Origin: an uncultured Aquimarina sp.
Lineage (GTDB): Bacteria > Bacteroidota > Bacteroidia > Flavobacteriales > Flavobacteriaceae
Direction of reading: 5' to 3'
Length of the DNA: 64,000 nt
Assembly: GCF_947496855.1 (NCBI RefSeq)
Contig: NZ_CANMED010000007.1
Coordinates: forward strand, 372,001 to 436,000
This document shows, piece after piece, positions 7,758-19,146 of the stretch. Position numbers and translations under genes: made by a program. The notes under the pieces are model-generated. The model did no database searches and was not told the origin of the DNA. It was given only the letters and a program-made list of their open reading frames with translations. Position 1 is the first letter of the stretch; each line of letters begins with the position of its first letter.

Positions 7758-8468
7758 TTGAAAATATCAATTATCATCCCTATTCTAAATGAAGCAGCTA
7801 CAATTTGTAAGCTGCTTTCCCATTTGATAAAAGCCGCAAATACGGAAGAGGCTATCGAAGAAATTATCATTGTAGATGGTGGAAGCGTGGATGAATCCAT
7901 AAAAACAGTACAAAACTTTTCGAACACACAAAGCACTACGATTAAAGTAGTTTCTTCAGAAAAAGGGCGTGCTAAGCAAATGAATGCTGGAGCTGCAAAA
8001 GCTTCTGGAGACATACTTTATTTCTTACATGCTGATTCTTTTCCTCCAAAGAACTATGACCGGTATATTCTAGAAGAAATTCATAAAGAAAATGAAGCAG
8101 GATGTTTCCGAATGAAATTTGATTCCAATCATTGGTGGCTTCGTTTTCTCGGATGGCTAACACAGTTCGAAAGTAAAAGATGTCGTGGCGGTGACCAAAG
8201 TCAATTTATTACTGCTTCATTATTCAAAGAAATAGATGGTTATGATGAAGCATATGTGGTATACGAAGACAATGATTTAGTTGACCGACTTTTTGCAATA
8301 AACAAATTTATCATCATCCCTAAATATGTTGTTACCTCTGCCAGACGGTATAGAGAAGTTGGTGTTTGGCGATTACAATATCATTTTCTAAACATCCATA
8401 TGAGAAGATGGCTGGGGGCTTCATCAGAAGATTTGTATCGATATTATAAAGAAAAAGTTGTTTCTTAA
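7758..8468 (+). CDS. TIGR04283-type family 2 glycosyltransferase (arsenosugar-associated)
   Basis: This 236-residue GT-A enzyme begins with the classic IIIPILNEA strand and carries the nucleotide-sugar site IIVDGGS and the DxD-like FLHADSF. The C-terminal SARRYREVGVWR motif is typical of the TIGR04283 group that co-occurs with ArsS and ArsM. The start is a TTG codon at 7758; no ATG exists near it, and the conserved first strand begins at once. It is probably cotranscribed with the DUF547 gene upstream. It may add the sugar or lipid part to the arsenic nucleoside, by inference from context only. Confidence 0.85.
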   Translation: MKISIIIPILNEAATICKLLSHLIKAANTEEAIEEIIIVDGGSVDESIKTVQNFSNTQSTTIKVVSSEKGRAKQMNAGAAKASGDILYFLHADSFPPKNYDRYILEEIHKENEAGCFRMKFDSNHWWLRFLGWLTQFESKRCRGGDQSQFITASLFKEIDGYDEAYVVYEDNDLVDRLFAINKFIIIPKYVVTSARRYREVGVWRLQYHFLNIHMRRWLGASSEDLYRYYKEKVVS

Positions 8469-8492
8469 ATCTTCTTCTATATCTTTAATGCA

Positions 8493-9608
8493 GTGGAAAC
8501 GTTAGAAATACTTTTAATAATATTACTATGTATTGGTGCCATACAAGGAATCATTTTCGGAATCATTTTATGGCAAAAAAAAGGGTTACACTACATCGCT
8601 AATCGATTTCTAGCTACCATACTATTCTTTTTCTCCTATCGTCTTATTGTAGAAACTTTAAACATTTTTGGACTCGGGAGATACGACTTCTGGTATCATA
8701 TATTATTAGAATACAATTGGATCTACGGAACGCTCATCTATTTTTTTATAAAAAGTTATGTCAATCCAAAATTCAGGTTAGTACCGAAAGATTGGATCCA
8801 TTTCTTACCTGTATTACTAGAATTTTCTTGGAGTTTTTTCATAAAAGCACAAAATTTTTATTGGGATGGCACTAGAGAGAGTCTCTCTTGGTTAGGATAT
8901 TGGGGATATGTCGTATGGATGCATTACCCTACAATGTTTATCATTTCTGGAGCATTAATTATTTTTTATAGCATCAAAGCCGAAAAAATACTTAGCAATA
9001 CCATTCAGGTAGAAGGGTATAAAATTCTTACAGAAAAAATTGAATGGATTAAACGAGTTGTATTAGTAATGAAGATATTCTCTATTATATATATTCTAGG
9101 AATATTGATCGATTTTTTCTTTTTCAATTTTGCTAGTAATTTTTTCTATGGACATCCTGTATTTATCGGAATGGCAATTATTACCTATTGGCTAGGTTTA
9201 GAAGGTTTTGCTCGAAGAAAAGAATCTGCTTTTAAAGAAATAGCAATAATCTCTGATAAGGAAAAAAAGCAATTGTTAAACATTAGTAAGGCTTTAGAAA
9301 TTAAAATGAAAGAAGAACAGCTCTTCAAAAACCCTGAGCTTACTTTAGCTTCGTTATCGAAACAACTTTCTGTAAAACCCTATTTGGTTACTAAATGCTT
9401 AAACACTATCTATCAGAAAAAATTTACTGATTATATAAACGAACTTCGTTTTGAAGAAGTAAAAAAATTGCTCAGTAATCCTAAAAATGATAATCTTACG
9501 CTTGTCGCATTGGCATATGATGCCGGTTTTAATTCTAAAGCTTCTTTTAATAGAACTGTAAAAAAAATTACAGGATACCCTCCTAGCGCTCTAAAATCAG
9601 GGTCATAA
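8493..9608 (+). CDS. Membrane-anchored AraC-family transcriptional regulator
   Basis: The N-terminal 240 or so residues contain about seven hydrophobic segments, and the C-terminal 100 residues form an AraC-type double helix-turn-helix (LASLSKQLSVKPYLVTKCLN, then VALAYDAGFNSKASFNRTVKKITGYPPS). This 7TM-AraC design is common in Flavobacteriia. The start is a GTG at 8493, 24 bases after the previous stop. The signal sensed is unknown. It may control the three secreted proteins that follow on the same strand, which are separated from it by 123 bases. Confidence 0.85.
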   Translation: METLEILLIILLCIGAIQGIIFGIILWQKKGLHYIANRFLATILFFFSYRLIVETLNIFGLGRYDFWYHILLEYNWIYGTLIYFFIKSYVNPKFRLVPKDWIHFLPVLLEFSWSFFIKAQNFYWDGTRESLSWLGYWGYVVWMHYPTMFIISGALIIFYSIKAEKILSNTIQVEGYKILTEKIEWIKRVVLVMKIFSIIYILGILIDFFFFNFASNFFYGHPVFIGMAIITYWLGLEGFARRKESAFKEIAIISDKEKKQLLNISKALEIKMKEEQLFKNPELTLASLSKQLSVKPYLVTKCLNTIYQKKFTDYINELRFEEVKKLLSNPKNDNLTLVALAYDAGFNSKASFNRTVKKITGYPPSALKSGS

Positions 9609-9731
9609 GGGTTTCAATTAAAAAATTGAGTCCTTGATTTTATCTGAAATTTGTCTCATTTAGCAAATTGCAACGATTCTTTTCTGCATTTTGTCAATAT
9701 TTGTTTCAAATAAATTCTAAAATCAGAAAAA

Positions 9732-10130
9732 ATGAAACACTTTACAATCTTAAAAAAAGTAATTCTACTTATTCTTTTTATTACTTCTTTTTCAAGCTTT
9801 TCTCAAGAAAACAATAAAGATTTGCAGCTATTAATTGGTGAATGGAAATTGGATATGAGCCCCCAAGATAAAACAGATAACAATTTTGCTATGATGCGCA
9901 TAGATAAGATAGATGTCAATTCGATACAAGGAACATTTTATCGAGAAGGAGTTCAAATAAAAAAAGGAAAAGTCAATACACAATTAGACGTTATTTATGT
10001 TGCTCTAATCTCTGGTGATAATAGCGGAAGTTATAACACAAGCTTTTATTACAAGAACGGAAAATTATACGGTTCTACTCATGCTATAGACAGAGGTTTT
10101 TTAGCAGTTTGGATTGCAGAAAAAAACTAA
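9732..10130 (+). CDS. Small secreted protein of unknown function
   Basis: The 132-residue product has a clear signal peptide (ending near SFSSFSQ) and a mature part of about 105 residues predicted from sequence pattern to be beta-rich, with a LLIGEWKLDMSP start that resembles lipocalin-like small domains. I do not recognise the family with certainty. It is the first of three secreted proteins (spacing 10 and 12 bases) downstream of the membrane AraC regulator, which suggests one transcript. Confidence 0.65.
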   Translation: MKHFTILKKVILLILFITSFSSFSQENNKDLQLLIGEWKLDMSPQDKTDNNFAMMRIDKIDVNSIQGTFYREGVQIKKGKVNTQLDVIYVALISGDNSGSYNTSFYYKNGKLYGSTHAIDRGFLAVWIAEKN

Positions 10131-10140
10131 ATAATAAGCC

Positions 10141-10629
10141 GTGAGAACAGTAATTTTACTATTAATAGCATTCTCCTTAAACTCATTGACTGCACAAATA
10201 CAATATGGAACTCCTATAAACGATCAATTACCCGAAAAATTAAAAAGCGTACGCAGAGCAATTGAAGTAAAAAACTTTCCCAAAACCATTGATCCTATTA
10301 AAATTGATAAACGATATTATTGGAAACACAATACTGCAATTCTGTGCAAAGAAAGTGAGATCAAAATTATTGAGTACGGAGCTTATCTTTTTTATAATGA
10401 TATCTGGAACCATAGAAAATCATATCCACTAAAAGAATTAAATAAAAACTTCGGGACTAAAAAAGAAGTTGTAAAACAATCTGAACCATATACTTGGTCA
10501 CAAAATTGGCGTACCGATAGTTCGCTTATTGGAGGATGGGCTATGTGGTACTTTATTGGTGTTACAGAAGATGGAGAAACTATCTGTGGATATGAAAAAA
10601 TAGAAACCACTGATAAACTTTTAAACTAA
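10141..10629 (+). CDS. Secreted protein of unknown function
   Basis: This 162-residue protein starts with a GTG codon and has a signal peptide (MRTVILLLIAFSLNSLTAQ). The mature part has many aromatic residues (KRYYWKHNTA, SQNWRTDSS, GGWAMWYFIG) and two Cys. No known domain was recognised. It sits 10 bases after the previous gene and 12 before the YceI gene, so it is likely in the same operon. Confidence 0.65.
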   Translation: MRTVILLLIAFSLNSLTAQIQYGTPINDQLPEKLKSVRRAIEVKNFPKTIDPIKIDKRYYWKHNTAILCKESEIKIIEYGAYLFYNDIWNHRKSYPLKELNKNFGTKKEVVKQSEPYTWSQNWRTDSSLIGGWAMWYFIGVTEDGETICGYEKIETTDKLLN

Positions 10630-10641
10630 AAAATACCCGAA

Positions 10642-11214
10642 ATGAAATCATTGCAAATAATTCTAATTATACTTTGTCTACAACTAGGAGTTCAAAAAAC
10701 ATATGCTCAGAATTTCAAATTAGACTCACAAAAATCGACACTCTTTTGGACAGGCAAAGCCGCATTTAGTTCTTATTCATTAAAAGGAACTGTAGCACCT
10801 AAAAAAGGTACTCTCTTTATAATCGATAAGGCAATTGCGACTTTAAATATTATAATCGATATGAAAAGTTTAGATCACGAAAACAGTGACCTCAAAAATC
10901 ATCTAAAAAATGAAGACTTTTTTGAAGTAAAAAAATACCCAGAAGCTACTTTCTTTCTAGATAATATCACAAACATTGAAGATGGTAAAGCAATTTTAAG
11001 AGGAAAATTAACTATAAAAGAAAAAACCAATACAGAAGATATTCCTGTAAAAATAGAACAAACTGAATCCAGAGTCATTCTTAAATTCAATTATACTATC
11101 GACAGAACCAAATATGGAGTTAACCATAATTCACCTAGTATTTTTAAACGTATGAAAGAAAATGCAATTGCGGATGAATTTATATTGGAAGGCACATTGA
11201 TATTTGTAAAGTAA
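10642..11214 (+). CDS. YceI family periplasmic protein
   Basis: The product (190 residues) has a signal peptide of about 22 residues and a YceI-like lipocalin fold. It begins with FKLDSQKSTLFWTGKA, and has the family block SLDHENSDLKNHLKNEDFF and KYPEATFFL. YceI proteins are periplasmic or secreted barrels that bind isoprenoid or other lipid ligands. It is the last gene of the group starting at 9732. The ligand cannot be told from sequence. Confidence 0.88.
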   Translation: MKSLQIILIILCLQLGVQKTYAQNFKLDSQKSTLFWTGKAAFSSYSLKGTVAPKKGTLFIIDKAIATLNIIIDMKSLDHENSDLKNHLKNEDFFEVKKYPEATFFLDNITNIEDGKAILRGKLTIKEKTNTEDIPVKIEQTESRVILKFNYTIDRTKYGVNHNSPSIFKRMKENAIADEFILEGTLIFVK

Positions 11215-11420: not shown

Positions 11421-12887
11421 TTACAACTCGCTCTTACTTACTTTTCCTGAAACATTAATAATTGTTCTCACTTTTCTCCAGAGATTCCGAGACACTATTG
11501 CGTTTTCGTCAATCTCTCCTAGAAGATGCTCCAAATTTAATTTTTTGACTCTATCTTGATGTTGTATGCTTAGCATGCCATCATCTGATAATATTGACAT
11601 ATCCCATTTTTTGAAAGTGCGATAAGGTTTCGATCCACTCCACATAGTGATCACATCCGTATGTCTTTCATCTTCTTTTATTTTATCGTATAACGGTAAA
11701 ACTTCCTTTTTAGGTCCTTCAATTAATTGAAAAAACACATTTTTATAATAAATCAGACTTCCTGTAATATTATTTTTTTTATTGTTTATTCTTGAAGCAT
11801 CTAGTATTTGTTGTACATCCGATTCATTTAATTTCTCACTTGCTATCGATCGATAACTTACTTCATACATTAAAGTATTCTTGTAGAACGAATCTTTATA
11901 TTTACTAGGAAGAATTCCGAACCTTTTATAAAACAAATTTGAAAAATGACTTCTACTAGAATAACCAACCATATAGCATATTTCAGAAACACTCTTGTTC
12001 GTTTTATAGATAAGTTCTTTTGCAACTTCCATTCTAACATTGCCTACATATTCATTAACAGAATAACTATATAAAAATCGAACGCCGGCTTGGAGTTTTC
12101 TTGGAGAAAAACCTAAATATTTACTAAGAACTGAAATTGTCAATTTATCGTCGATATTATCTCTTATGTAATCACCTAGTTCTGTAATTTTTGATAATTC
12201 TGATTTTGTGAGCTTGGGCTGAAAATTATCAGTTTGATGATCTAAATCGTGTGCTTCAATTTGTGCAGCAAGTAAATTTGTTATGGCGCCCTCTGTTAAA
12301 AGTCGGCCTACTAAATCAATTCTTGTATTCTTTACAATAATTTCTGCAAATGTACCGGTATGTGCATCAATATCCCCAAAATAGCGATATGGCCGTTCAC
12401 CTGAAATTTGTGAAAATATTTCTTTTAGGTTTTGTTCCAGTCTCTTCCTCGTGTTGTGGCTAGAGCCCTTCAATAATGACGGTGTTAGAATTAAATAACA
12501 GCTTTCAAATTTGACACCACTACTCATCTTAAATTCAGAACTAGTACCAGGTTCGCTAATAAGTATGAAATTTTGCCCTTGTCTTATTTTATGATACTCT
12601 GTCTCGTGAGCGAATTTCTGCATCTGAAATCCCGAAACATGATACCCAAAATAATAAGGTCTATCTGACGAAAACTTTAAATCGATAACTAGTTCAGAAT
12701 TAAATGTAATATTATAAACCCAGGCAGTAAGACCAGGAAAAAGCTCATATAAGGATATACTACCTTCTCCATGTTTATTATTCAAAATAAGAGTGGCCGC
12801 CCCGAGACTCTCTTCTAAATTAGCATCAAAATAAACAGCAAACTGTTGTAACATCTCCAGCGGGCTTTTCTCTTCTAATCCTAACAT
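11421..12887 (-). CDS. AraC-type regulator fused to a BLUF blue-light sensor domain
   Basis: This 488-residue protein has three parts: an N-terminal region of about 220 residues that resembles the sensor/cupin part of AraC proteins, an AraC-type double helix-turn-helix (about 235-335), and a BLUF domain (about 340-435). The BLUF assignment rests on the flavin-site residues and their spacing: Y345 in VSYRS, N369 in RINNKKNNITG, Q387 in VFFQLIEG, W428 and M430 in FKKWDM. The gaps Tyr-Asn 24, Asn-Gln 18 and Gln-Trp 41 equal those of AppA (Y21, N45, Q63, W104). It should bind FAD and respond to blue light, controlling transcription directly. A good promoter (12931-12959) precedes it. It stands alone; targets are unknown. 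Confidence 0.9.
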   Translation of the reverse strand: MLGLEEKSPLEMLQQFAVYFDANLEESLGAATLILNNKHGEGSISLYELFPGLTAWVYNITFNSELVIDLKFSSDRPYYFGYHVSGFQMQKFAHETEYHKIRQGQNFILISEPGTSSEFKMSSGVKFESCYLILTPSLLKGSSHNTRKRLEQNLKEIFSQISGERPYRYFGDIDAHTGTFAEIIVKNTRIDLVGRLLTEGAITNLLAAQIEAHDLDHQTDNFQPKLTKSELSKITELGDYIRDNIDDKLTISVLSKYLGFSPRKLQAGVRFLYSYSVNEYVGNVRMEVAKELIYKTNKSVSEICYMVGYSSRSHFSNLFYKRFGILPSKYKDSFYKNTLMYEVSYRSIASEKLNESDVQQILDASRINNKKNNITGSLIYYKNVFFQLIEGPKKEVLPLYDKIKEDERHTDVITMWSGSKPYRTFKKWDMSILSDDGMLSIQHQDRVKKLNLEHLLGEIDENAIVSRNLWRKVRTIINVSGKVSKSEL

Positions 12888-12930
12888 ATAACTTTAAAAT
12901 TTAAATATTATGTTTTTTTAAATTCACTTA

Positions 12931-12959
12931 CAAAATTAAGGAAAATTACAGATACTCAA
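12931..12959 (-). promoter_or_regulatory. Bacteroidota-type promoter of the AraC-BLUF gene
   Basis: On the reverse strand, TTG (12959-12957), an 18-base spacer and TAATTTTG (12938-12931) match the Bacteroidota housekeeping promoter (TTG / TAnnTTTG). The expected transcript would start about 40 bases before the ATG at 12887. Confidence 0.65.
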
Positions 12960-13108
12960 AAAATTAAGCTAATTCTTCATTTTAATAGTTATACCAAAGC
13001 TCTAAGCATACTCAATAGTAAAATAAACTTTTGTATAAGTCAATGAATATGTAATGATAGATTTTAAAACAAAACATAGGCTATCGGGTTATAACATTCT
13101 TATTAAGG

Positions 13109-13939
13109 TTACTGTTCTAATAGTGCCAACATATCAAGATTTTTAAGCTGCTTTTTTTCGATAGATAAAGCTTTATCGTTACCTTCTTTAAGGTAGCAAT
13201 AGCATTTGATAAAATGCACTAACTCTACTAGTTCTGTTGTGTAATCTATAGGAGTTTTCTGATTTAGTTTTTTAAGAACGCTTTTACTTTTGCCAGCGAT
13301 AGCTTTATTGAGTAACTTATATAATTGAACCTTGTGTAAAAGATCCTCATTTTTGCTTTTTTTCAGAATCACCTTGAATTGTTGATTACTTTGTTTTATG
13401 AATACACTTCTAATCGAAGCATTGGACAGACTCATAGCAAGGTTTTGATAAGCCACCCCGAGCTTAAGATGCGCCACACTACTTTTTCGATTTCGAATCA
13501 TGGGAATCATCGCAGTGTATACGTTTTTTAGATCAGCATTAGGGATTTTTTTAAACCAGTTTATATACTCATCTGTATGTCTGTATCCTGTTTTTCTATC
13601 GATGACCGCTTTATTAGGATCCATTATTAAAACCGTAGGAAGCGATTTTACCGAAAAGTATTTAGCGAGCTCTCTTTTTCTATCAAAATCTACTTTTACA
13701 AATACGAAATTATCTTTTACAGAATTAATGGCTGTTGTTTGCCAAAGCTTGTCATCCATTCTTTTGCAGGGACCACACCAACTGGCCCAAAAATCAACTA
13801 CCATCCACTTTTTTTGCTCTATGGCAATCGCACGACCCAGCTCAAAGTCATGAATCCATTGTACCTTGGCTATTGTCGTTGTGGTGTGTAATAGCATTAC
13901 GAATAAGACACTATACTTTAATTGCTTTATGTTTTTCAT
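13109..13939 (-). CDS. Secreted thioredoxin-fold protein
   Basis: The protein (276 residues) has a signal peptide of about 24 residues and a thioredoxin domain with the active site WASWCGPCKRM (C55, C58) and the cis-Pro segment SVKSLPTVLIM. After about residue 140 there is an alpha-helical C-terminal region of unknown family, possibly TPR-like. It is expected to act in the periplasm as a disulfide reductase or isomerase. It follows the immunity operon on the same strand, but a hairpin at 14004-14033 separates them. Confidence 0.85.
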   Translation of the reverse strand: MKNIKQLKYSVLFVMLLHTTTTIAKVQWIHDFELGRAIAIEQKKWMVVDFWASWCGPCKRMDDKLWQTTAINSVKDNFVFVKVDFDRKRELAKYFSVKSLPTVLIMDPNKAVIDRKTGYRHTDEYINWFKKIPNADLKNVYTAMIPMIRNRKSSVAHLKLGVAYQNLAMSLSNASIRSVFIKQSNQQFKVILKKSKNEDLLHKVQLYKLLNKAIAGKSKSVLKKLNQKTPIDYTTELVELVHFIKCYCYLKEGNDKALSIEKKQLKNLDMLALLEQ

Positions 13940-15399: not shown

Positions 15400-15741
15400 T
15401 TATTCAATTTCACCATCCTCAGCAAACTGACTAAAACGAGCAATCCATCCATTTTCTATTATTGGCTCTGCTTTAAGCATTTCACTAATCTCTGCTAGAT
15501 TAACCTGTTTATCATCCTCTTCATAAATTAGTTTAAATTCTTCATGTTCTTCAAAGATTTTCAGAAAATCAAACAGTAAACTTTCAATAGAATTTTTTAC
15601 TATTGAATTAGTCTTATCTTTTAATTGTCCTGATTCTAGGTTTTTATTGATGTTTTTTTGTAATAATCTGTAATTGAATTCAAAAACATCATCAATAAGA
15701 GTTTTGCCAAACTTATCCAGTATTTCTTTGTTGGATTTCAT
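15400..15741 (-). CDS. Small acidic protein, probable immunity protein
   Basis: This 113-residue protein is rich in Glu, Asp and Lys, lacks a signal peptide and looks all-helical for its first two thirds, ending in an extended IIENGWIARFSQFAEDGEIE. No family was recognised. It follows the gene at 15748 by only six bases, so the pair is cotranscribed. Its size, acidity and place downstream of a polymorphic toxin are the usual marks of a toxin-neutralising immunity protein. Confidence 0.55.
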   Translation of the reverse strand: MKSNKEILDKFGKTLIDDVFEFNYRLLQKNINKNLESGQLKDKTNSIVKNSIESLLFDFLKIFEEHEEFKLIYEEDDKQVNLAEISEMLKAEPIIENGWIARFSQFAEDGEIE

Positions 15742-15747
15742 AACTAA

Positions 15748-16158
15748 TTACTTATTCAAACTATTCATTTTTTCCCATATATCATAAGTCTCATGAAAAG
15801 ATTCCTTCATAAAATTGGGGTCTTCTAAATAGTCTTTTGGCCTATCTATTAGTAAGACTTCATTCCATTTTCCGAACTCAGGATTTGGAACGCTCAAGCC
15901 ATCAATAACATTAGTAAGATCAAAAAAAGCAGAATCTAATCCGTCATTTAAAAGTTTCTCAATAATAGAGCAAGCTAATGAAGAGTTTTTAATTTTATCC
16001 AGAAACTCTTTTTCTTCTTTTGATATACTGGAATACACTAAGTCACCTACATCAGAATCTTTAAAATTTTTTAAAACAGAAGAAACAGTTTTATGTATTA
16101 TCTCGTGTATTTGTAGTAAAAAAATTTGCTTGGTCTCTTCTGATAATTCGTAATTCAT
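15748..16158 (-). CDS. Small acidic protein, probable immunity protein
   Basis: The 136-residue product is acidic, mainly helical in pattern and has no signal peptide. It contains LSVPNPEFGKWNEVLLIDRP, after which a short amphipathic helix ends the protein. The family was not recognised. It lies 84 bases after the DUF2019 gene and 6 bases before the next small gene. By position it is probably an immunity protein for a relative of the toxin domain encoded at 16602, or for a toxin domain lost from this locus. Confidence 0.55.
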   Translation of the reverse strand: MNYELSEETKQIFLLQIHEIIHKTVSSVLKNFKDSDVGDLVYSSISKEEKEFLDKIKNSSLACSIIEKLLNDGLDSAFFDLTNVIDGLSVPNPEFGKWNEVLLIDRPKDYLEDPNFMKESFHETYDIWEKMNSLNK

Positions 16159-16242
16159 ATATCAATTTTTGATAACTAATTTTGTTTTTGAAGAATATAT
16201 AGACCGTACTGAAATTACGATCTATATATTTATTATAAAAAA

Positions 16243-16581
16243 TTATTGGTTTTTTCTCCATTCCTTTAGAATCATCTCCGCGCTAAAAGAAGAATCAGGG
16301 ATATTAGAAGTAACTATTTTTTCTAAAACTGTTACGGACCTATCTTCGTATATAGGTAATAAAAACTTCGCAATCCAAACTAAAATTTTATCATTATCGG
16401 AATCCAATAAATCTTTTAATGTTTCAAGACCATAGTTTTTTTCTATAAAATCTTTTGTTAACAAGATTTTCTTAGCATACTTGTTGACGATTTTATAATC
16501 TTTATCACTTGAAGCTTTTGAATATAGCTCGATATACTCAATAATTGTTTCTTTTGCTTCTTTAACATTTTTAAAATCCAT
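16243..16581 (-). CDS. DUF2019-like immunity protein
   Basis: This 112-residue protein is helical, with LLDSDNDKILVWIAKFLLP and a C-terminal SFSAEMILKEWRKNQ, the pattern of DUF2019, a HEAT-like family often encoded next to polymorphic toxins. It starts 20 bases after the toxin gene stop, the usual position of the cognate immunity gene. It most likely binds and blocks the HHIVEQ nuclease-like domain of the toxin. Cytoplasmic. The match to DUF2019 is from memory of the family pattern. Confidence 0.7.
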   Translation of the reverse strand: MDFKNVKEAKETIIEYIELYSKASSDKDYKIVNKYAKKILLTKDFIEKNYGLETLKDLLDSDNDKILVWIAKFLLPIYEDRSVTVLEKIVTSNIPDSSFSAEMILKEWRKNQ

Positions 16582-16601
16582 AGTGGTAAATCTAACTAAA
16601 T

Positions 16602-18641
16602 TTAATCAATAATACCTGTTATCCCATCCCATCCTAATTCTCTTAAAATTCTTATCCCAAAATCATATTGCTCTTGAAAACTTTGTGTACTTAGCCATTC
16701 TCTTACTGTTTTTCCGTTAGTAAATGGTGTTATACTATTATAATACCCTGTAACTCTTCTATGAAGTTCTCCTGCACCATTAGGAATATCAATAATATTC
16801 TTCGTATTATGAATATTTGTTTTACCAAACTTTTGTTGATTTAATCTTTTATACCCATTTTGTTCTACGATATGATGCAAAGCGTTACCAGAAGATGCAT
16901 TGCCTTCTATAGCCTTAAACTTATTAAATGATTTATATCCCCTCCCTCCGGCTAAAGTCGTCTCCGCAATTTCTTTTAATTTAGCCAAATATGTTTTCAT
17001 AGCGGCAGCTGTTATTCTTGTCCCTCCATTAACAGCTAAAAATGCACCGCCACCACGAGATGGCGATATAATAGTAGCAACATCCAAAATATCGAAACCT
17101 AAGCCTACTAAATCAACTCCTAAACCTGCATCCCATTCAATTACTAATTGATTTCCATCATATCGTACAATAAACATTTCTCCTAAGGTTTCATCATCAA
17201 TATCACGATGAAAGTCAATTTCTTTGTATTCAAGGACCTGTCTTACAAATCTGCCTTCTCTCTCATTACTTACCCACCACTCATAACTTCTAAGTATACT
17301 GCTATAAAAAGCATCGCTAAGTCCTTGAATTAATTCGCCTCCATAAGAAAAAATGACTTCAAAATCATCTGTCGGATCACAAGGAGGACTTGGACAAGTC
17401 CCAGTAGGCCCTGTAGATATGGTTTGAGCATTAGAACTTATGTAAGGAGAAAAATCAAAGACGGTATTGTTTTCTAATGATTGAATTATACCATTGGCAA
17501 TCTCTCTTTCTAGAACATTCTCTGAGGTTTTAGCTTTTATTAATTCTGTAAAAAAAGTAAAAGATAATGCAGCGTTACCATTTTCTATTAACAACCTAAA
17601 TATAGAAACTGTCTGCGCATTAGTTAAATCATTAGCTACACTAGCATCTAATATTGAATTCCCCAGTGCTAAAACTGCTGGGTCAACTATTCCTGTTAGA
17701 AAGTCCTTATTACTACTTATCAAACTACGGATATCCTGAGTTAGTTCATAATTCTCCTCTGAGGAAAAAATCCAAGCAGATTCTGCAAGACCAATAGGTC
17801 TGCCTAATACGTTAGCAAGATTATCTATAAAACGACCGTCATAGATAATTGAATTGGAGAGCTGGTTGTCACCAAGACTACCATCGCCTCCATTACCACT
17901 ACCCCCTAATCCGTTATTATTGTTATAATTAGAACCAGGACCATTATTTGAATTATTACAACTCATACAATTATTCCAAGGAAGACCTCCTGTACTGTCT
18001 AATATAGATTCGCAGTGGGTATAATCATACGCTACATCAGGACACATTGCTTCGTATGGTCTATGGCAATCATCAGAATTACTTGGCCTAAAAGTTACTG
18101 TAGAACAATCATGATGTGTTTTAGCTAATTCGTTAACTTGAGCTCCTTCTTCGAGCGTAGTAACATTAAGTATTTCTCCTTCTAGATTAGATAATGTGAT
18201 GATACCAGAGTATTTGGCAAAATCAAAATGATCATAAAAACTCTTATCAAATTCATACGTAAGGATATAAGTATATAGTTTTCCGTCTCGTATAGAAGCG
18301 TGTAGATTACTAAATGACTGATACCTGTTCTTATCTTTTATATTAAACGTATACGTCTCAGAACCCTGCTCGTGTATAATAGCTTTTATACTTTCTAAGT
18401 CTAATTCTCCGGTATAGCTGGTATTACTTTTGCCAGCAAGTTTAATTTCTAGTCCGTTTTTGGTTTTATTTTGTAGAAACCCTACAACATTCGGGATTTC
18501 ACTTTTATCTACATCGATCGATGTATTCGTGGGTAGTTGTTGCGATGTTGAGACAGTTTCTGCTAATTCCTCATTTTCACAACTGTTTAATAGTAGTATT
18601 CCAATGACTATTAAACAAAAGTTTACAATACTTTTTTTCAT
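16602..18641 (-). CDS. Polymorphic toxin lipoprotein with C-terminal HHIVEQ nuclease-like domain
   Basis: The product (about 679 residues) is a surface lipoprotein with a toxin-like C-terminus. From the ATG at 18641 it has a lipoprotein signal (LLLNSC, C21); an ATG nine codons upstream is less likely. A Cys-rich part and an Asn/Gly-rich linker follow near 190-260, then a helical region, and the last 90 residues form the toxin domain: LHHIVEQN, FGKTNIHNTKNIIDIP, a further LHRRVTGYY and TVREWLSTQSFQEQYDFG. This block is the same type as C-terminal domains of Rhs-like toxins, of the HNH/ENDO VII-like nuclease group. The DUF2019 gene follows 20 bases downstream. Lipid anchoring rather than Rhs or WapA repeats is the odd part. 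Confidence 0.8.
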   Translation of the reverse strand: MKKSIVNFCLIVIGILLLNSCENEELAETVSTSQQLPTNTSIDVDKSEIPNVVGFLQNKTKNGLEIKLAGKSNTSYTGELDLESIKAIIHEQGSETYTFNIKDKNRYQSFSNLHASIRDGKLYTYILTYEFDKSFYDHFDFAKYSGIITLSNLEGEILNVTTLEEGAQVNELAKTHHDCSTVTFRPSNSDDCHRPYEAMCPDVAYDYTHCESILDSTGGLPWNNCMSCNNSNNGPGSNYNNNNGLGGSGNGGDGSLGDNQLSNSIIYDGRFIDNLANVLGRPIGLAESAWIFSSEENYELTQDIRSLISSNKDFLTGIVDPAVLALGNSILDASVANDLTNAQTVSIFRLLIENGNAALSFTFFTELIKAKTSENVLEREIANGIIQSLENNTVFDFSPYISSNAQTISTGPTGTCPSPPCDPTDDFEVIFSYGGELIQGLSDAFYSSILRSYEWWVSNEREGRFVRQVLEYKEIDFHRDIDDETLGEMFIVRYDGNQLVIEWDAGLGVDLVGLGFDILDVATIISPSRGGGAFLAVNGGTRITAAAMKTYLAKLKEIAETTLAGGRGYKSFNKFKAIEGNASSGNALHHIVEQNGYKRLNQQKFGKTNIHNTKNIIDIPNGAGELHRRVTGYYNSITPFTNGKTVREWLSTQSFQEQYDFGIRILRELGWDGITGIID

Positions 18642-19146
18642 CTGTTTATTTTTAATTAAAAATTCCATCCCTTACTAAGGAAATAACTCATTTTTTTTAT
18701 CGGGGTCAAAAATAAGTGAACTCCCTTAACATTATTTACAGAAATCTGTAAAACCACTTATTTTTTTAACTCCAATATTCTTATTTTATCATTTCTTCTA
18801 TTTGTGGGGCTCACTCCCATTCTGCATCCCCTTTTAGCCCTCAAAAAGATAATTCGAAGAATTAAAATACTGCTTCGAAGAAGTATATCAACGAATATTT
18901 TGATATCGGCAAAGCTTGTAAGGACTATCATAAAGGCTATTGGTCCTGTTTTCAGGGCTGTTTGCCCCAATTTCGGGGGTTCTGATCCAAAAAATGATAG
19001 TTCGAAGCACCTTTTTAATTCTTCGGAAGACCTCAGTAACGCTTCGAAGAACCTATGAAATAGCTAGAAGGTGTAATATAAGGGTTCTATAGTATTCGAG
19101 AGGCCTTAGAAAATCTTCTTTACTCCTATGCACCCATAGAAAATTA
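18642..19146. other. Intergenic region with TTCGAAG repeats
   Basis: No convincing gene lies here. A -7-like box for the toxin gene (TATTTTTG on the reverse strand) is at 18714-18707. Short open frames on both strands (18758-18970 reverse and 18804-19058 forward) have no codon pattern or start context that supports them. The middle is less AT-rich than the surroundings and holds repeated TTCGAAG words. Confidence 0.6.
18853..19049. repeat. Cluster of palindromic TTCGAAG words
   Basis: TTCGAAG occurs at 18853, 18874, 19001 and 19043, and a variant TTCGGAAG at 19022. Four exact copies of a seven-base word in 200 bases is far above chance in AT-rich DNA. The spacing is 21 bases within each outer pair (18853/18874, 19022/19043). 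The core TTCGAA is self-complementary. The function is unknown; it could be a remnant of a mobile or recombination element or a protein-binding array. Confidence 0.55.

Follow-up and report, generated by a model that had tools for sequence, protein, structure and literature searches.

A gene that joins an AraC-type DNA-binding part and an apparently complete BLUF blue-light sensor domain in a single protein chain was found in the window, the 64,000-nucleotide stretch of an Aquimarina sp. contig analyzed here, and it probably switches genes in response to light. Its open reading frame coincides exactly with the interval named in the first-pass annotation, which had not given the strand (minus; Table 1). 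The protein was described there as a simple photoreceptor-regulator. This is too narrow, because the N-terminal residues form an AraC-type cupin-like sensor/dimerisation domain and two inputs are therefore likely. We consider the protein likely to be a one-component, dual-input transcription factor, with a putative ligand, presumed control by blue light and putative targets. This reading is supported by BLUF and helix-turn-helix (HTH) matches far above their cut-offs, by a match to AppA in register and by flavin sites kept in 23 of 26 fused proteins. Also in its favor are the constant joint length, purifying selection, trees in which the fused proteins fall on one side of a branch, and short BLUF genes beside sister AraC genes. 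Against it count the altered sites of some members, the weak support for a single origin, the 35 of 38 sampled stand-alone BLUF loci with no family AraC nearby, an operator search that found no motif, and window neighbors that give no hint of light targets.

Domain architecture of the fused protein

The AraC half is recognized by two Pfam profiles, HTH_18 (residues 254-331, 71.7 bits) and HTH_AraC (residues 294-328, 35.8 bits), and the best AraC DNA-binding-domain structure by sequence is 3oio (E 1.2e-8). The double HTH of about 100 residues is that of the AraC/XylS family, and the cupin-type N-terminal sensor/dimerisation domain is that of its ligand-binding branch. No Pfam match was found for this N-domain. 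The Pfam BLUF profile search, which had been proposed as a check, placed PF04940 at residues 340-430 (E 1.2e-27) with 96.2 bits against a cut-off of 25. The best solved-structure match by sequence for the BLUF part is the Beggiatoa-type photoactivated cyclase 5m27 (E 2.1e-11). Photosensor and DNA-binding domain thus lie in one chain, as in photoresponsive one-component transcription factors.

The predicted model of the 488-residue protein has a mean pLDDT of 80.5. The AppA BLUF structure 1yrx superposes on it with 0.9 Å across 97 residues, model 339-435 corresponding to chain 15-111; since both ranges hold 97 residues and 97 are aligned, there is no gap and the offset is 324. Residues Y345, N369, Q387, W428 and M430, whose numbers are correct in the translation, fall on AppA 21, 45, 63, 104 and 106, the key residues of AppA, so that the Tyr, Asn and Gln of the flavin site are in register (21, 45 and 63). 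The spacings of 24, 18 and 41 residues claimed to equal those of AppA are borne out by this gapless match. The protein is predicted to bind FAD and to undergo a blue-light photocycle. The placement of an AraC double HTH directly before a BLUF domain in one protein also holds, given the Pfam matches, the AppA-like fold and conservation across the family.

The joint between HTH and BLUF is constant in length. P327 and Y345 are 18 residues apart in 24 of 25 relatives and 19 in the remaining one, and the sequence between them is poorly conserved. Among the 25 aligned fused proteins, the link between N-domain and HTH takes five lengths (33-37), as does the W428-W470 distance (39-48). A fixed joint length together with a varying sequence suggests that HTH and BLUF may be rigidly coupled. 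The C-terminal cap is also present in PixD, BlsA and BlrB, whose structure matches extend to residues 479-485, with low model confidence around residues 430-460. W470 of the cap is kept in 24 of 26 fused proteins, and a W is found there in 32 of the 48 non-AraC BLUF proteins.

Table 1. Features of the AraC-BLUF gene in window coordinates
Feature	Position	Strand	Remarks
AraC-BLUF coding sequence	11421..12887	minus	488 aa + stop, ATG start
Upstream intergenic region, presumed promoter	12888..13108	minus	gap between listed ORFs
Cupin-like AraC sensor/dimerisation domain	12204..12887	minus	residues 1-228
AraC-type double helix-turn-helix	11886..12188	minus	residues 234-334
Short HTH-BLUF joint	11871..11885	minus	residues 335-339
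BLUF domain	11592..11870	minus	residues 340-432, with Y345, N369, Q387, W428, M430
C-terminal cap	11442..11591	minus	residues 433-482

Distribution, conservation and origin

The comparison set comprised 26 fused AraC-BLUF proteins (24 loci in 17 genomes), 15 unfused AraC proteins sharing their N-domain, and 48 BLUF proteins that lack it. A chance architecture is excluded because the 26 proteins share the same domain order. Matches running from N-domain to BLUF were found in 9 of 52 genus genomes, own genome included (up to 30 candidates scored in each). One genus genome has four AraC-BLUF genes and another, G301, has five (L071, L076, L078, L079 and L080). A BLUF match occurs in 115 of 299 genomes of the family, and it lies inside a frame of 481-510 codons in at least 8 of the 299. 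Among 296 genomes of the order only the own genome (G000) and G154 gave such genes (at most 9 candidates scored per genome), and among 395 of the phylum only these two and G681, from a different family of the same class (at most 6 candidates scored per genome). Six peptide patterns, a weak probe, were used to scan genome contigs and hit 9 loci in the HTH region only, with no AraC-BLUF. Among 733 plasmid records matched, none had a place covering at least 80%.

The full set (Y, N, Q, W, plus either M or L) is present in 23 of 26 fused proteins; by site, Y is retained in 26, N in 25, Q in 25 and W in 24. Three proteins depart from it: the second copy at L048 has K for N and C for W, L080 has F for W, and L081 has H for Q and A for M. 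Light sensing is therefore not retained by every member of the family. L048 carries a tandem AraC-BLUF pair (7902-9350 and 9549-11000, plus strand), and its second copy, having lost the equivalents of N369 and W428, is perhaps a light-blind partner. The spacings 24/18/41 are invariant in 25 of 25 aligned fused proteins; this alignment, also used for joint lengths, leaves out L081. G304 holds a 98% orthologue with 33 synonymous and 11 non-synonymous codon differences. The rates are dN 0.0099 and dS 0.122 by NG86, or dN 0.0107 and dS 0.108 by YN00, giving dN/dS of about 0.08-0.10. As judged from these codons, the nearest orthologue pair is under strong purifying selection.

The AraC-half tree, built on 26 fused and 15 unfused proteins, requires a single change between fused and unfused (branch support 72/59), and so does the BLUF-half tree of 26 fused and 47 stand-alone proteins (branch support 16/64); in both, the 26 fused proteins fall on one side of a branch. 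The simplest reading, which these trees weakly support, would be one fusion event followed by duplication and loss.

Other BLUF proteins were noted in the comparison set. One of the 48 without N-domain is a BLUF-cyclase from a genome of the same family (L053:8354-9382, minus), which joins BLUF to a class III adenylate/guanylate cyclase domain as in photoactivated cyclases. The own genome has three tandem short BLUF genes (L054:5492-6954, in G000:C2), flanked by genes for a sigma-70 factor and a ribulose-phosphate 3-epimerase. With their G177 relatives they form a long branch (5.07) in the BLUF-half tree. W and M are missing at their usual places in 5 of the 48 stand-alone BLUFs, and the three L054 copies are among these.

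Genomic context of the fused genes and their AraC relatives

A thioredoxin-like gene (13109-13939, minus) lies upstream of the AraC-BLUF gene and a YceI-like gene (10642-11214, plus) faces it. Both are kept in G304. We rejected conserved neighbors as targets, since the flanking genes of the window are kept only at the locus of this 98% orthologue; no general synteny was found among the fused genes, and the thioredoxin-like and YceI genes give no pointer to light targets. In one subclade (L073, L074 and L075) the AraC-BLUF gene is near a coproporphyrinogen oxidase gene (Pfam on L073 only), a proximity absent for the window gene. Operator motifs were sought by comparing 157 intergenic stretches of the island with 149 others for enriched 8-mers and spaced dyads, and nothing convincing was found (4,946 words tested, the best at a binomial log-probability of about -10.5; orthologous stretches are not independent). 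The upstream regions of 11 fused genes, when read, gave no trustworthy shared motif.

Two other regions of the window were noted. A second AraC-type regulator (8493-9608, plus) lies about 1.8 kb from the AraC-BLUF gene, with HTH_18 at 288-368 and an N-terminal half that is long and hydrophobic by eye. At 15400-18668 (minus) there is a predicted lipoprotein-like ORF of 688 residues with a His-rich C-terminal end and zero Pfam matches, followed by three small ORFs (112, 136 and 113 residues). Judged by eye, this region resembles a polymorphic toxin with immunity genes.

Short BLUF genes are sometimes found beside unfused AraC genes of the family, as is a phytochrome module in six relatives (see below), but most of these AraC genes have neither neighbor. 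At L080 an unfused AraC gene is followed 4 bp later by a short BLUF gene in another frame, and short BLUF genes lie 183 bp (L084) and 234 bp (L137) upstream of a family AraC. Of the stand-alone BLUF loci, 38 were taken by rank: a family AraC lies no more than about 4.5 kb away in 3 of them (L086, L094 and L110) and in none of the other 35; L106, chosen for its nearby AraC, is not counted.

The family AraC genes are clustered in many genus genomes. In six relatives (G303, G305, G310, G319, G320 and G334; loci L084, L129, L130, L133, L134 and L137) the cluster is accompanied by a phytochrome kinase, a heme oxygenase and response regulators, with domains assigned by Pfam on G320 representatives. 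Recurrent neighbors in this island are genes for a Dps-like ferritin, topoisomerase IB, MscS, YtxH and SRAP, and also phospholipase-D, DUF2383, S30AE, DJ-1/PfpI and nitroreductase genes. In 46 genomes, 6 of 14 phytochrome matches are no more than 6 kb from a family AraC, against 0.16 expected at random. This contrast is not readable as a probability because the six genomes share one ancestral island, and the count uses no AraC match that covers HTH or BLUF alone. In the own genome the AraC cluster is present (L082 and L083), with the AraC-BLUF gene on another contig. No phytochrome was found in the own genome, where one control was detected, and this counts against the island reading for this strain. 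A fused gene stands beside island genes in G330 (L069) only. The rhodopsin search of the own genome gave zero matches and zero control detections. We tentatively propose that the cupin-AraC regulators of this bacterial family form a set dedicated to light and stress, a reading that we hold to be possible and rather doubtful.

Proposed mechanism, alternatives and significance

The cupin-like N-domain would dimerise the protein and probably sense a small ligand, and the AraC double HTH would bind DNA. The C-terminal BLUF domain would bind FAD, with blue light rearranging the Tyr-Gln-flavin hydrogen bonds. This photochemistry may alter the surface of BLUF or the cap, and the signal would travel through the short joint of fixed length, the cap helices or both to the second HTH, a route proposed because the joint is short and constant. 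DNA binding or activation would then be altered by light, in addition to being controlled by a ligand through the N-domain. We infer the steps between flavin and transcription, as well as the direction of the effect, the ligand and the targets.

It is rather unlikely that a photoactive BLUF domain mainly recruits or releases partner proteins instead of switching its own HTH. Reported cases of BLUF action through partner proteins are PixD-PixE and BlsA-Fur, and short BLUF proteins with a cap usually work in this manner; the fused unit is a whole short BLUF protein with its cap. Another family AraC, a possible partner, lies within 1.4 kb in 7 of 24 fused loci (L047, L048, L050, L072, L078, L080 and L105), and single-domain response regulators adjoin L051 and L052. 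However, the joint is of fixed length, which tethering alone would not require.

We regard as improbable a structural, redox or temperature-sensing role of BLUF in which light is not the cellular signal. BLUF proteins that can integrate temperature have been described, BlsA (PMC5955987) and YcgF (PMC4844311), and the flavin sites are altered in some members, but the photochemical residues are kept in 23 of 26 proteins and the nearest pair is under strong purifying selection. Finally, the patchy distribution (9 of 52 genus and at least 8 of 299 family genomes) might point to an inert by-product, to gene decay or to an assembly artefact, but this is hardly credible against a family of 26 intact proteins in 17 genomes with the same joint and a dN/dS of about 0.08-0.10.

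The dual-input transcription factor that we favor has the cupin-like N-domain and double HTH of AraC, BgaR, CuxR, ToxT and Rns; for the N-domain, CuxR is the closest fold. In contrast to AraC/XylS regulators, the chain continues beyond the HTH into a light sensor. Differently from AppA, PixD/Slr1694 and BlsA, BLUF is here C-terminal to its effector, a DNA-binding domain of the same chain; photoactivated cyclases and BlrP1 carry BLUF at the N-terminus. EL222 (LOV-HTH) also unites a light sensor and an HTH in one chain, but the sensor is LOV. The synthetic BLADE (VVD-AraC) uses the AraC DNA-binding domain (PMC9614035) and has an N-terminal LOV sensor in place of the ligand domain, whereas in AraC-BLUF the sensor is C-terminal and the ligand-type domain is kept.

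MerR modules had been listed by the first-pass annotation among BLUF fusions, which does not agree with the two sources consulted: in a survey, 64% of BLUF proteins are short and 34% carry EAL (PMC4844311), and the MerR-type repressor of E. coli is a separate protein antagonised by BLUF-EAL (PMC3509220). In that BluF (YcgF)/BluR (YcgE) system a BLUF signal reaches a transcription factor, as proposed here, but through two proteins and a MerR-type repressor instead of one chain. In PMC9020721 the AraC is a neighboring gene. Searches of open-access papers turned up no description of AraC-BLUF, so "undescribed" is provisional; fusions of this kind have very likely been annotated automatically.

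If the protein is light-controlled, a single chain would couple BLUF photochemistry directly to a DNA-binding domain, and its sensor sits on the other side of the effector compared with BLUF enzymes of known structure. It would offer a clean test of how BLUF signals exit the domain. It would also be a natural parallel to the engineered LOV-AraC switch and give access to the light responses of bacteria for which the literature searched says little about light-regulated transcription. If the light-and-stress set also exists, blue light would enter through fused BLUF or adjacent short BLUF proteins, and red light through the phytochrome kinase, heme oxygenase and response regulators. The island under control would be that of the Dps-like ferritin, topoisomerase IB, MscS, YtxH, DJ-1, the S30AE hibernation factor and SRAP. 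AraC-BLUF would then be the dual-input one-component arm of this set, and it would be the first BLUF transcription factor to carry a DNA-binding domain itself.
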